Assembly: GCA_946477855.1 (NCBI GenBank)
Contig: CAMKZU010000003.1
Location: forward strand, 1 to 64,000
Reading direction: 5' to 3'
DNA from: an uncultured Lactobacillus sp.
Lineage (GTDB): Bacteria; Bacillota; Bacilli; Lactobacillales; Lactobacillaceae
Length of the DNA stretch: 64,000 nt
Under the pieces are notes generated by a model, which was given only the letters and a program-made list of their open reading frames with translations, was not told the origin of the DNA and did not search any database. Within the stretch, counting starts at the first letter, position 1, and every line of letters begins with the position of its first letter. Shown here piece by piece: positions 49 through 46,550 of this stretch. The position numbers were made by a program, and so were the translations under genes.

Positions 49-75
49 AACTTCAGCCACTAAATACTATTTTTT

Positions 76-135
76 ATTGCTTATTTTAAAAAATAATGAT
101 TAAATTATTGGTATCATTTTAAGCAAAAGGAAGAA
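76..135 (+). promoter_or_regulatory. Probable promoter and ribosome-binding site of the ABC exporter operon
   Basis: A TGG-TATCAT extended -10 box lies at 109-117 in a very AT-rich stretch. An AAGGAAG Shine-Dalgarno follows at about 127-133, nine bases before the ATG at 142. No good -35 box is placed 17 bases upstream, as is usual for extended -10 promoters. An alternative pair is TTGCTT at about 77-82 with an AT-rich -10 seventeen bases on. Confidence 0.4.
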
Positions 136-5337: not shown

Positions 5338-7017
5338 CTATTTTTTCTCAACTAACATTGGTAAGATCATTGGCCGTCTTTTGGTTTTTGAATATAAAAA
5401 GTCTGAAAGGTTATCAACTATTGCATGACGGATCACACTATCTTTAGGATGATCTACCTTGTCCATCTCAGATTTGATAACGTGATAAATGTGTTTTTGG
5501 GCCTGATTAATTAATTCAGTTGATTCCCGCATATAGACAAATCCGCGACTTAAAACATCTGGACCAGCCAAAACACGTTTGTGTTTGTAGTCAACCGTTG
5601 CCACTACAACAACTAAGCCATCTTCAGACAAGACTTGACGGTCATGAACTACTACATTACCAACATCAGCTGTGCCTGAAGTATCAACATAAACATCACC
5701 CGCTGGAATATGACCAGCTATTCTTGACCCTTCAGGACCAAAACACACAACTTCACCGTTTTCAAGAACAAAAGTATTTTCTGCAGGGACGCCTGCTGCT
5801 TGTGCTAATTCAGTATGAATAACTTGCATGCGGTATTCGCCGTGAACAGGGATCATGTACTTAGGCTTGGTCAAACGGACCATCATTTTAAGTTCTTCCT
5901 GACCGCCATGTCCAGAGGTATGAACGTTATTTATTCTACCATGAACAACATTTGCGCCGCCTTCCATTAACTTGTTGATTAAGTGGTTAACGCTTAAAGT
6001 ATTTCCAGGAATTGGGTTCGATGAAAAAATTACTGTGTCGCCTGGTTGTAAACTAATTTGCCGATGTGTTCCGTTGGCAATACGAGAAAGGGCGGCTAAA
6101 GGTTCACCTTGAGAACCGGTACATAAAATCATTACTTGTTCTGCTGGTGTATGGTTAATTTCGTTAGCATCTACAATCAAACCATCAGGTACATTCAAGT
6201 AACCTAAGTCAATCCCATTTTGCACACCATTTTCCATACTACGACCAAAAATGGCAACTTTTCTTCCAGTGTCAATAGCTGCTTCAATGGCAGTTGAAAC
6301 ACGGTATAAGTTAGATGCAAAAGTAGCAAAAATTATTCTTCCGTGTATTCCGGTAATAATATCGTGTAAAGATTTAGCAACGAACCGTTCGGATTTAGTA
6401 AACTGACTGACTTCAGCATTGGTTGAATCAGATAGTAATGCTAAAACACCATCGTTGCCTAATTTTGCTATTCTCTGGAAGTTTGGAGCTGGTTGATTCA
6501 TAACTGGAGTTAAATCAAATTTAAAATCACCAGTAAAAACGACTGCACCTAGTGGTGTATGAACAGCTATACCTAATGTATCAGGAATAGAGTGAGTGGT
6601 TCTGAAAAAGGTAACCGTTAATTTCTTAAATTTTAGTACAGTATCTTCATGTTCTTCATGAAGTTCAGTAGTTCTTAAAATACCATGCTCTTCAAGCTTA
6701 CCTTTAATTAAAGCTAAAGCAAATGGGGTGGCGTAAACTGGAATTTCCGGGATTTTTTCTAGTAAGAAGGGGATCCCGCCAATGTGGTCTTCGTGTCCGT
6801 GACTAACAACTAGAGCTTTAATCTTTTTACGGTTTTTAATTAAATAAGAATAATCTGAAATCACATAATTAATACCAAGAAGATCATCTTCAGGAAACTT
6901 AATACCACAATCCATAATGATGATTTCATCTTGGTATTGTACACAGTACATATTTTTGCCGATTTCGTGCAACCCCCCGATTGCAACAACAGCAACTTCA
7001 TTATTTTTAATACGCAC
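5338..7017 (-). CDS. rnjA: Ribonuclease J1
   Basis: A 559-residue metallo-beta-lactamase/beta-CASP nuclease with 5'-to-3' exonuclease and endonuclease activity in mRNA decay and rRNA maturation. All zinc ligands look intact: SHGHEDHIGG near residue 74, TTHSIPD near 140, TGDFKFD near 162 and VHGEYRM near 368. The C-terminal domain ends with the usual PMILPMLVEKK. It follows rpoY by 5 bases, an arrangement conserved in Bacilli. A second paralogue, with a damaged active site, is encoded at 18757-20541; in Bacillus the two form a J1/J2 complex. Confidence 0.96.
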   Translation of the reverse strand: MRIKNNEVAVVAIGGLHEIGKNMYCVQYQDEIIIMDCGIKFPEDDLLGINYVISDYSYLIKNRKKIKALVVSHGHEDHIGGIPFLLEKIPEIPVYATPFALALIKGKLEEHGILRTTELHEEHEDTVLKFKKLTVTFFRTTHSIPDTLGIAVHTPLGAVVFTGDFKFDLTPVMNQPAPNFQRIAKLGNDGVLALLSDSTNAEVSQFTKSERFVAKSLHDIITGIHGRIIFATFASNLYRVSTAIEAAIDTGRKVAIFGRSMENGVQNGIDLGYLNVPDGLIVDANEINHTPAEQVMILCTGSQGEPLAALSRIANGTHRQISLQPGDTVIFSSNPIPGNTLSVNHLINKLMEGGANVVHGRINNVHTSGHGGQEELKMMVRLTKPKYMIPVHGEYRMQVIHTELAQAAGVPAENTFVLENGEVVCFGPEGSRIAGHIPAGDVYVDTSGTADVGNVVVHDRQVLSEDGLVVVVATVDYKHKRVLAGPDVLSRGFVYMRESTELINQAQKHIYHVIKSEMDKVDHPKDSVIRHAIVDNLSDFLYSKTKRRPMILPMLVEKK

Positions 7018-7022
7018 AGAGA

Positions 7023-7247
7023 CTACTTCTTACTCTCAAAAGTGGTTAATTTAAAATCGGCATGCTCTTTTTCGTAAGTTAGCGAATTGCCAGCCAATTC
7101 TTGGATGAGTTCAATATTATAGGGGGTATTTTCCTCAACCATTGTTCTTGCGGCCACCATGTTATCGGCCTCAAGATAAAGAGTTTGGGTTGTTTCCCGT
7201 CTAGGATTGACAACCTTGTCTTTTTGATACAAAACTTTGTAGATCAT
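7023..7247 (-). CDS. rpoY: RNA polymerase epsilon subunit
   Basis: A 74-residue protein of the DUF1447/YkzG family, identified as the epsilon subunit of Firmicute RNA polymerase. The opening MIYKVLYQ and the central [12 protein letters not shown] segment are characteristic. It is a small accessory subunit of the core enzyme that resembles phage Gp2 in fold. It is the first gene of the rpoY-rnjA pair, separated from rnjA by only 5 bases, and has its own promoter upstream. Confidence 0.93.
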
Positions 7248-7320
7248 ATTTGTATTCTCCTTATTCAGTTAATAAAACGTTCTAATTTTGGACAGCTTAA
7301 AGCTTCCAATAGCTAGTAAA

Positions 7321-7326
7321 ATTCTA
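7321..7326 (-). promoter_or_regulatory. Extended -10 promoter for rpoY-rnjA
   Basis: On the minus strand TGG-TAGAAT makes a clear extended -10 box about 75 bases before the rpoY start. The -35 region is poor. It fits the only sizeable non-coding gap ahead of the operon. Confidence 0.5.
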
Positions 7327-7373
7327 CCATACATGCAAAAACAAGTATAGAATCAAGTTTTGCCAGCTTTATT

Positions 7374-7403
7374 AAAAAAGCCGTCAAAATGATAGCTGAC
7401 GAC
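7374..7403 (-). terminator. Terminator after def
   Basis: On the minus strand a GTCGTCA/TGACGGC stem with G-U pairs is followed by a run of six T. It lies just beyond the def stop codon. Confidence 0.7.
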
Positions 7404-7421
7404 ATAAATATTTGTGAAAAA

Positions 7422-7976
7422 TTAATAAATGACTACGGTATCTTCATCTAATTTAAATGGGTCTTGTTTATTGATGCGGTCATAGAAAAGATGACCCCGC
7501 AAATGTTCAATTTCATGTGAAGCTACGATTGCAGGATAATCCTTTAGACGAATTGTTTTTTCTTCACCAGAAACAGTATAATAATGAATTTTCAATTTAT
7601 CAGGACGGGGCACATAGCCATCAATTACTTTATCAACGCTCAGACAGCCTTCACCTTCGCTTAAACAAGCCTGTCTGACAGATTCGGACAAAATTTCTGG
7701 GTTAACAAAAGTTTCCTTGAAAACTATTTCATTTTGATCATTTGGTACTAACAATGAGGCCATCTGGACGCTCTCACCAACTTGAGGTGCGGCTAAACCA
7801 ACGCCAGCACGTAATTGGTGCTTTTTGGCAATTTTAGGATCTTGGGAGTTAATCAGATATTCCATCATTTCTTTTGCTAAATTTTGATAATGTTCGCTTA
7901 AAGGAAAAGTTAGTGGTTTGGCTACCTTGCGTAATACCGGATTTCCATCTCGGGTAATATCTTTCATTAAAATCAA
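7422..7976 (-). CDS. def: Peptide deformylase
   Basis: A 184-residue metalloenzyme that removes the formyl group from the initiator methionine of new proteins. The three family motifs are present: [10 protein letters not shown] near residue 59, EGCLSV near 110 and HEIEHL near 155, giving the Cys and two His metal ligands. The length and insertions match the type 2 enzymes of Gram-positive bacteria. It is a single-gene unit with its own terminator, divergent from the typA leader. Confidence 0.97.
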
Positions 7977-8088
7977 TTACATTCACTCTTTCATAAAAGT
8001 TTATAGTTATATTTGTAACATAAAATAAACTAATTTGTCTGCTTTTTATTCTATACTAAATTTTTAATTTGAAAAAGAGGGATAAACG

Positions 8089-8187
8089 TTGACCCTTAAA
8101 CAGTTAGGTGGTAAAATCAATGAGCGTAAATATACAGATATGAAACACTTCGATCAGCATGTTTTTGACGTGCCGCCGAAACTGTGA
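8089..8187 (+). CDS. 32-residue leader peptide or small protein upstream of typA
   Basis: A short reading frame starts at TTG 8089 with an excellent AGAGGG ribosome-binding site seven bases upstream and ends at TGA 8187. The product is a basic 32-residue peptide beginning MTLKQLGGKINERKY and ending VFDVPPKL, unlike any family I know. Its stop codon lies inside the 5' arm of a terminator hairpin (8180-8205), and typA starts only 26 bases beyond that hairpin. This layout fits a leader peptide controlling read-through into typA, but it could equally be a free-standing small protein. Coding status rests on the ribosome-binding site and layout only. Confidence 0.6.
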   Translation: MTLKQLGGKINERKYTDMKHFDQHVFDVPPKL

Positions 8188-8205
8188 CCACGTCACAGTT
8201 TTTTT
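8180..8205 (+). terminator. Terminator/attenuator hairpin ahead of typA
   Basis: A perfect 8-base stem AACTGTGA/TCACAGTT with a 5-base loop runs into seven T residues: a strong intrinsic terminator. It overlaps the stop codon of the 32-codon frame and precedes the typA ribosome-binding site by a few bases, leaving no room for a promoter between. A copy of ACAGTT at 8100-8105 could compete for the 5' arm. Confidence 0.8.
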
Positions 8206-8230
8206 ATTGAGGAGTGGAGGAGGAATACTT

Positions 8231-10072
8231 TTGTCAGAAAAAAGAAGAGACGATATTAGGAATATAGCTATCATAGCGCACGTTGACCATGGTAAAACTA
8301 CTCTGGTTAACCAATTGTTGAAACAATCCGACACTCTCCCTGAACATATGGCTTTGGAAGATCGTGCGATGGATTCAAATGATATTGAGCGTGAACGTGG
8401 TATAACTATTTTATCTAAAAACACTGCGGTTAAATATGGTGATACAACCATTAATATTCTGGATACTCCAGGACACGCCGATTTCGGTGGTGAAGTCGAA
8501 AGAATCATGCATATGGTCGACGGTGCTTTATTATTGGTTGATGCTTATGAAGGCACTATGCCACAAACTCGTTTCGTACTTAAAAAGGCATTAGAAGCTG
8601 GAGTTAAGCCAATTGTTGTTATCAACAAGATTGACCGTCCTGGTGCTCGTCCTAAAGAAGTTCTTGACGAAGTGCTGGAATTATTTATTGAATTAGGAGC
8701 AAACGATGAGCAGCTTGACTTCCCAGTAGTTTATGCATCTGCTTTAAATGGTACCTCCTCTTATGATCCTGATCCGTCAAAACAGGAAGAAACTATGAAC
8801 CCTATTTTTGACACGATTATTAAATCAATTCCAGCACCAATTGATAATTCTGAGGAGCCTTTGCAATTCCAAATTACGATGCTCGACTGGGATGATTATG
8901 TTGGTCGTATAGGTGTTGGCCGTATTTATCGCGGGCGAGTTAAGGTTGGCGATAATATTACTGTTATGAAACGTGACGGTTCTACCCAAAACTTTAGAGT
9001 TACCAAACTGTTCGGTTTCTTTGGCTTAAAGCGTAATGAGATTACGGAAGCTAAAGCTGGTGATATCATTGCCATTAGTGGTATTAACGATATTTTTGTC
9101 GGTGAAACTATTGCTTCAGCCGAAAATCCTGAAGCTTTGCCTCTTCTTAAGATTGATCCACCTACACTGCAAATGGATTTTGTAGCTAACGATTCACCTT
9201 TTGCTGGTCGCGAAGGTGACAAAGTTACTCCTAAAAAGTTGGAAGATCGTTTAATTAAGCAAACTAGAACCGATGTTTCTTTGAAAGTTGATCCAACCGA
9301 TCAATTAAACGCTTGGACCGTTTCAGGACGTGGTGAGCTCCACCTTTCAATTTTGGTTGAAGAAATGCGGCGTGAAGGTTTTGAATTGCAATTATCAAGA
9401 CCAAAAGTTATCTACCGTGAAATTGATGGTAAAATGTGTGAACCATTTGAAGCAGTTCAAGTGGATACGCCTGACGAATATGTTGGTTCTGTCATTGATT
9501 CACTTTCTCAAAGAAAAGGAGAAATGAAGAACATGGCATCTACCGGTAACAATCAAACTCGGCTTGACTTCCTAGTTCCATCTCGCGGATTAATTGGCTA
9601 TAACAATGAATTTATGTCTCAAACTGGTGGCTACGGCATTATGAACCATAGTTTTGATTCATATAAACCTGTTGTTAAGAATTGGGAACCGGGTCGTCAA
9701 AATGGTGCTTTAGTTTCCATTAGCCAGGGTAAGTCAACCACATATTCTTTGCAAACTGTTGAGCAACGTGGTGAATTGTTTATTGGAGCCGGAGTTGAAG
9801 TTTATGAAGGAATGATTGTTGGTCAATCCTCTCGTGATCGTGATATCGCAGTTAATGTTATCAAAGGTAAAAACCTGACTAACACTCGTGCTGCGGGTAA
9901 GGACCATGCCGCAGCTATTAGAACTCCTAAAACTTTAACGCTTGAAGAAGCCATAGAGTTCTTAAATGATGATGAATATTGTGAGGTAACACCAGATTCA
10001 ATCAGGTTAAGAAAGAAAATTCTGAACACTTCTGAGAGACAAAAAGCCGATAAGAGACGTAATAAGAAGTAA
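8231..10072 (+). CDS. typA: Ribosome-associated GTPase TypA/BipA
   Basis: A 613-residue translational GTPase related to EF-G that binds the 70S ribosome and helps 50S assembly and stress or cold adaptation. G1 [10 protein letters not shown] is near residue 15, G2 ERERGIT near 50, G3 [12 protein letters not shown] near 75 and G4 NKIDRPGA near 130. The C-terminal CTD unique to BipA follows, with [14 protein letters not shown]. The TTG at 8231 is chosen because GGAGGAGG lies seven to eight bases before it; the frame is open further upstream but overlaps the leader hairpin. Transcription must read through that hairpin. Confidence 0.96.
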
Positions 10073-46372: not shown

Positions 46373-46405
46373 TATAGTATGTGAAATTTGATAAATAAGT
46401 TTGTT

Positions 46406-46512
46406 GTCTTCATGGCAGGGTGAAAGTCCCGACCGGTGGTGCAAGTCCACGACCCACGCAAGTGGTGGAATCTATTGAGATACCGATAGTTAGAGTCTAG
46501 ATGAAAGAAGAC
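46406..46512 (+). promoter_or_regulatory. FMN riboswitch (RFN element)
   Basis: The strongly conserved RFN core is present: GGCAGGGTGAAAGTCCC-GACCGGTGGT, AGTCCACGACCC, a variable stem, and GATACCGATAGTTAGAGTC. P1 closes by GTCTTC at 46406-46411 pairing with GAAGAC at 46507-46512. ACAGAC at 46511-46516 can pair with GTCTGT at 46555-46560 in the terminator, so FMN binding should free the terminator and switch off ribU. Confidence 0.96.
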
Positions 46513-46550
46513 AGACTAAACTAAAAGCCAAGATCTTAAGCTTACTTTTA

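Follow-up and report, generated by a model that had tools for sequence, protein, structure and literature searches.

The window analyzed in this study, a stretch of 64,000 nucleotides from an uncultured Lactobacillus sp., carries the peptide deformylase gene def on the minus strand (7422-7976) and the typA gene on the plus strand (8231-10072, start codon TTG), and the region of interest lies between them. TypA/BipA is a widely conserved GTPase. Both genes were confirmed by family models, and the identity of the downstream gene as TypA/BipA by TIGR01394 (920.4 bits against a cut-off of 757.3). The TypA protein of the window is 100% identical to TypA in the records of L. kimbladii and L. laiwuensis, two honey-bee species, and the genome is close to both. 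Judging from sequence comparison, we consider it fairly probable that positions 8089-8230 contain the promoter, the leader RNA, and a transcription attenuator of typA.

The promoter and the terminator upstream of typA

In a consensus scan of positions 7000-9000, the sole promoter-like site on the plus strand is 8089-8117, which has 10 of 12 matches plus the TGn extension. It consists of the -35 box TTGACC (8089-8094), corresponding to TTGACG inside the suhB gene of other genera, and the extended -10 box TGG-TAAAAT (8109-8117), with a 17-nt spacer. The scan returned six sites on both strands, compared with 6.6 in shuffled sequences, so that the weight of this site comes from its conservation. 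From 61 sampled genomes of the genus, 59 typA-upstream loci were obtained, the exceptions being G006, which has no full typA match, and G032, which begins at a contig end. Two further loci were dropped, namely L040, ending within the leader, and L091, failing the protein anchor. All 57 loci that were scored have both the promoter and the hairpin described below. The spacer is 17 nt long in 53 of them and 18 nt in the other four, and its sequence is variable; this combination of a fixed length and a free sequence is the behavior of a promoter and not of a coding start. Transcription is predicted to start at 8123-8125, as deduced from the position of the -10 box, and is followed by the conserved 5' element CGTAA (8125-8129), whose GTA stands at the same place in the alignments.

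The earlier note had interpreted the same segment as a 32-codon leader peptide with an excellent ribosome-binding site, where a translating ribosome would mask the terminator. The open frame exists (8089-8187), and in the window its stop codon does fall inside the 5' arm of the hairpin, but its TTG (8089-8091) forms the first three bases of the -35 box. A frame of at least 25 codons ending in the 5' arm was found in just six of the 57 genus loci. In the others, the frame starting at this TTG stops at different places after 2 to 40 codons (50 loci) or runs without a stop through the stretch read (L074). A Shine-Dalgarno-like stretch precedes the TTG in 14 of the 57 loci. Other small frames with a Shine-Dalgarno sequence after the predicted transcription start were seen in four loci, at differing places. 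No conserved translated ORF was found in the transcript, and the 32-codon frame has no match in Pfam. Hence, although the window and a few relatives combine an open frame, a Shine-Dalgarno-like stretch and a stop codon in the 5' arm, the conserved length and variable sequence of the spacer, together with the rarity of the frame, make translation-coupled control of typA by a leader peptide extremely improbable, and the leader peptide was rejected. The sequence ACAGTT (8100-8105), regarded in the earlier note as an alternative partner of the 5' arm, fails as such, because it belongs to the promoter spacer and thus precedes the predicted transcript start; in two close relatives (L035 and L037) it reads CTGTT. 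As a caution for annotation, the -35 box TTGACC can be mistaken for a TTG start codon.

The terminator hairpin, here called P2, occupies positions 8178-8202 of the plus strand, with the core CTGTGAC (8182-8188) and GTCACAG (8192-8198) and a T-run at 8199-8205. The strong hairpin with seven T residues of the initial description is confirmed, but the stem, described there as eight perfect base pairs, comprises 11 pairs if the A-T pairs and the G-T pair at its outer end are included, closed by a 3-nt loop. The segment 8176-8208 folds at -13.1 kcal/mol, the mean for shuffled sequences being -2.7, and none of 200 shuffles matched this value. By these features P2 is a strong predicted intrinsic terminator, and it likely terminates transcription in the cell. 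The Shine-Dalgarno region of typA, GGAGGAGGAA (8216-8225, plus strand), which is retained in the genus leader alignment, and the TTG start codon at 8231 follow closely behind the hairpin, as had been pointed out. Also in agreement with the initial description, the consensus scan shows no promoter-like site on the plus strand between the hairpin and typA. Since 25 bases separate the end of the T-run from the start codon and no promoter-like sequence is found among them, expression of typA in the genus needs read-through. The sequence has the arrangement of an intrinsic-terminator attenuator, with a terminator between the promoter and typA and no other promoter visible.

The constant stem and the structure of the leader RNA

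The sequence of the P2 stem is highly conserved. In 53 of the 61 genus genomes, the pattern CTGTGACN{3,4}GTCACAG has a single occurrence, which is at typA. Five of the remaining eight have variants of it at typA (L067, L068, L088, L089, and L090), and three could not be judged (G006, G032, and G040). The exact core is present in 33 of the 40 genus loci that come from named records and extend far enough upstream, and the other seven have a variant, also at typA. The five pairs CTGTG/CACAG are invariant in an alignment of 49 leaders. The terminator of def served as a control. It was detected in 18 of 44 loci, and its stems vary in both sequence and length, with the exception of two near-identical pairs from close relatives. 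This control is partial, because the scan missed the def terminator in 21 loci, near relatives of the window among them (def itself was not found in the other five); the def terminator of the window is visible in the consensus scan.

Outside the family, the relaxed pattern CTGTGACN{3,8}GTCACAGTTTTT is present in six of 398 genomes of the class, three of which are Lactobacillus, and in the one of the three non-Lactobacillus matches that was inspected it is located behind another gene. The hairpin is absent from all 19 loci of Enterococcus and its kin (L214-L232). That the stem is so constant suggests recognition of its sequence by a protein, an RNA, or a state of the elongation complex. A candidate pause-site consensus stands at UUUUUUUAUG. 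A DNA operator formed by the two half-sites is an unlikely candidate, because these stand 3 to 17 nt apart.

Two further helices are predicted in the leader. The P1 hairpin (8157-8173, plus strand) precedes P2, and the P0 helix is formed by CTTCGAT (8148-8154) and, between the T-run and the Shine-Dalgarno sequence, ATTGAGG (8206-8212), both on the plus strand; across the leaders, CTTCGAT pairs with ATTGA(A/G)G, beside the typA Shine-Dalgarno sequence. P1 folds more stably than its dinucleotide shuffles, with a mean z-score of -1.49 in 40 genus segments, and it ranks tenth of 200 or better in 14 of them. In a covariance-model alignment of 49 leaders, 92.4% of the cells pair and two-sided changes occur in 11 pairs (6.6 in shuffles). 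On this alignment, which was itself fitted to the structure, paired changes were counted in 77 cells, where shuffles gave 23.8 and slid versions no more than 27, and double changes affect five of the seven P0 pairs and all five P1 pairs. The alignment (A4) includes L096 of another genus and excludes the short leaders L084 and L087, and all 49 loci given to the covariance model matched.

The other alignments comprised 48 of the 50 non-identical genus leaders and the 31 leaders of one clade. In an unfitted alignment of one clade, double changes were found in two pairs, a number reached by 32 of 500 shuffles, and there were fewer pair types than in the shuffles. In single sequences, the P0 complementarity is significant in two of 47 genus leaders, with a mean length of 7.2 versus 5.9. 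P0 was not found outside the genus, where the longest complementarity is 5.72 versus 5.62 in shuffles, one of 29 loci being significant. P1 is well supported in the genus, and P0 is likely within it.

Folding of the whole leader is modestly above shuffles (z-scores of -1.67 for 8124-8240 and -1.34 for 8076-8240). In MFE folds of truncated leaders from one clade, an antiterminator is drawn around P1 by pairing of CACUUCG with CGAAacuGUG. Its mean pairing is no better than in shuffles, 0.57 versus 0.60 in 45 genus leaders and 0.63 versus 0.63 in 36 others; therefore, we claim neither an antiterminator that uses the 5' arm of the terminator nor a switch.

The promoter inside the suhB-like gene of other Lactobacillaceae

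In many other Lactobacillaceae, typA is preceded by a gene of the inositol monophosphatase family PF00459 (150.6 bits in L194). Because no NCBIfam equivalog reaches its cut-off for this gene, SuhB-like is used here as a family name and not as an assigned function. Outside the genus, 60 typA loci were picked by hand from 120 matches so as to be spread over the genera. The suhB-type promoter TTGAC[GT]-18-TANNAT was identified in 41 of these loci, inside the 3' end of suhB wherever that gene was parsed, and is absent from the other 19. A strict scan detected a terminator between this promoter and typA in 30 of the 41 loci, of the CTGTGA type in 24, and missed a CTGTGA hairpin in five more (L098, L099, L116, L121, and L150); neither a strict-scan terminator nor a CTGTGA core was seen in the remaining six. 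Other hairpins behind the promoter are GCTAGGG-like (L129, L132, L137, and L143) or GATCGGG-like (L133 and L136), and thus the layout of promoter, terminator, and typA is maintained with stems that differ from group to group. Where the hairpin and typA are 80-170 nt apart, as in some genera, a downstream promoter is possible, and weak candidates for one were seen. The pattern TTGACG-18-TANNAT-55..85-CTGTGA was found in 155 of 301 genomes of the family, compared with 10 matches of the reversed control; the gene behind each match was not always checked, and some of the listed matches are clearly elsewhere. The promoter-attenuator, which this pattern recognizes in 22 of the 40 sampled genera, offers a direct handle on the control of typA.

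The predicted start and the hairpin are separated by 45-76 nt in 30 other-genus loci. This distance, together with the fact that the conserved parts are the promoter, the 5' element, and the hairpin, would also fit a promoter-terminator unit whose product is a trans-acting small RNA of approximately 80 nt, with typA expressed as a by-product of read-through. However, no other promoter of typA is visible in the genus Lactobacillus, and conserved bases are found beyond the U-run (AT in 25 of 29 other-genus loci, and the P0 strand in the genus), which the terminated RNA would lack. Such a small RNA is therefore an unlikely main product of the region. The bases just past the U-run extend to ATG in 15 of the 29 other-genus loci, perhaps representing a pause site.

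The hairpin is positioned -5 to +20 nt relative to the suhB stop codon in all 17 loci in which both were parsed. In the suhB-bearing genera, ribosomes finishing suhB could thus cover the 5' arm, so that suhB messages would be read through and those from the internal promoter would stop. Since many terminators are found shortly after a stop codon, this distance by itself carries little weight, and the hairpin is kept in the genus Lactobacillus, which has no suhB; we consider coupling to suhB translation improbable. The same position of the hairpin indicates that it began as the terminator of suhB, and it could have been kept as a fixed valve, with a constant and unregulated partial read-through suiting a low level of TypA. 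The lack of support above shuffles for an antiterminator agrees with a fixed valve, but a plain terminator is free to drift as long as pairing is kept, as the def terminators do, whereas the typA stem is constant and the promoter feeding the hairpin is under selection. On balance, a fixed valve appears rather unlikely.

This selection is visible in the codons of suhB. In 29 hairpin-bearing suhB sequences, seven of them from named records, the codons overlapped by the promoter read NTT-GAC and NTG-NTA-(TCA or NAA) without exception, and the amino acids at these frozen codons vary (Ile/Val/Leu; Met/Val; Ser/Lys/Gln/Glu). The Asp residue under the promoter is encoded by GAC in 29 of 29 sequences (background 22%), whereas an invariant Asp elsewhere in the same proteins is encoded by GAT in 22 and by GAC in seven. 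At the predicted RNA start, Val is encoded by GTA in 26 of the 29 sequences (background 18%). Because the sequences are related, these counts should not be read as independent trials. As judged from this codon usage, the buried promoter constrains the synonymous codons of the suhB 3' end.

No PF00459 gene was found in the 61 genomes of the genus Lactobacillus, 49 of which are at least 90% complete, and one was present in each of the 14 control genomes. Since the promoter is kept there, it has outlived the gene that held it. We suggest that the element has a long history in the family, with the promoter within the 3' end of suhB and the terminator after the suhB stop codon in many other genera, and that the genus Lactobacillus lost the suhB-like gene and retained the promoter and the terminator as the control region of typA. 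This is a case of a promoter buried in the coding sequence of a neighbor, recognizable by synonymous codons, and surviving the neighbor.

Probable conditional read-through and a possible ribosome-assembly signal

According to the proposed mechanism, RNA polymerase would start at approximately 8123-8125 and produce an untranslated leader of about 55 nt with P1, followed by P2. Transcripts ending in the U-run could not express typA, whereas read-through transcripts could, and the latter might fold into a three-way junction in which P1 and P2 are closed by P0, beside the Shine-Dalgarno sequence of typA. The attenuator is probably conditional, that is, read-through into typA is regulated rather than constant. 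We think that conditional read-through is the likeliest reading of the locus, followed by the fixed valve.

A candidate signal comes from 23S rRNA. The sequence UACCGAAACUGUG is common to the typA leaders of one clade (L051-type) and 23S rRNA (L241), and its match is absent from the rest of the genus and from other genera. Identity to 23S rRNA extends over at least 13 nt in 17 of 57 leaders and over at least 11 nt in 36 of 57; the chance rate per 107 nt of the window is 0.004 for 13-mers and 0.05 for the 11-mer of the window itself, and the identity surfaced after scanning nine patterns. In part of one clade, the stem is preceded by ACCGAA, and both together are identical to the 23S strand over 13 nt. 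This strand hardly varies: it was parsed in seven of 30 loci and reads ACCGAAACTGTGGAT in six and ACCGAAACTGCGGGT in one. The identity may be due to chance. Ribosomal protein L20 is reported to rescue a bipA deletion of E. coli (PMC6962249). Because of this reported link between L20 and BipA and the 13-nt identity in part of one clade, we offer a ribosome-assembly signal for typA read-through as a lead, no more. In its most specific form, which is possible if doubtful, the terminator hairpin would be a sensor: a factor acting in trans and tied to ribosome assembly would read CUGUGAC/GUCACAG, along with the ACCGAA in front of it in part of one clade, and set the read-through, with TypA going up when assembly of the large subunit falters. 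If so, the typA leaders would form an undescribed class of leader RNAs in Lactobacillaceae, with a terminator that serves as switch and recognition site at once.

The only Rfam match at gathering score in the window is an FMN riboswitch (RF00050, 84.5 bits) at 46402-46516 on the plus strand, an ordinary known element. At 8080-8260, Rfam gave three unrelated weak matches (E-values of 2.2 to 9.3) and no match to a leader family such as T-box, riboswitch, or ribosomal protein leaders. A close analogy is the L20-interacting leader of infC-rpmI-rplT in Bacillus subtilis (RF00558), likewise a terminator leading ribosome-biogenesis genes; as described in PMC6097659, this terminator forms upon L20 binding and growth is cold-sensitive when it is broken. 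Unlike that leader, the typA leader has no match to RF00558, and the motifs CCGAA, GAAACTG, and CTGTGA are absent from the retrieved strand (in some cases antisense) of six RF00558 loci in five Lactobacillaceae genomes. The premature-terminator attenuators of Naville and Gautheret (PMC2965389), a set that includes lactobacilli, belong to the same general class, with a terminator between promoter and gene; the main text of that paper contains none of the terms typA, bipA, GTPase, and GTP-binding. The vmlR leader of B. subtilis (PMC9226507) also places a ribosome-related factor under pausing and transcription attenuation, but it is part of an antibiotic response, and no conserved translated ORF was found in the leader of typA.

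In the open-licence literature searched, we found no description of a typA attenuator, in line with the earlier note, which knew of none, and nothing on the control of typA in lactic acid bacteria. Thus, as far as searched, the kind is known, namely attenuation of a ribosome-biogenesis gene by a terminator, and the instance, the buried promoter, and the constant stem are undescribed. In a peptide-supply proteome of L. delbrueckii, TypA is listed with a ratio of 1.8 (PMC5561223), which fits changing TypA levels and is silent on their cause. Finally, a Lactobacillus-type typA (87% identity) with its leader is present in the record JAEDAG010000001.1 (L187), titled Faecalicatena absiana, which looks misnamed or contaminated.
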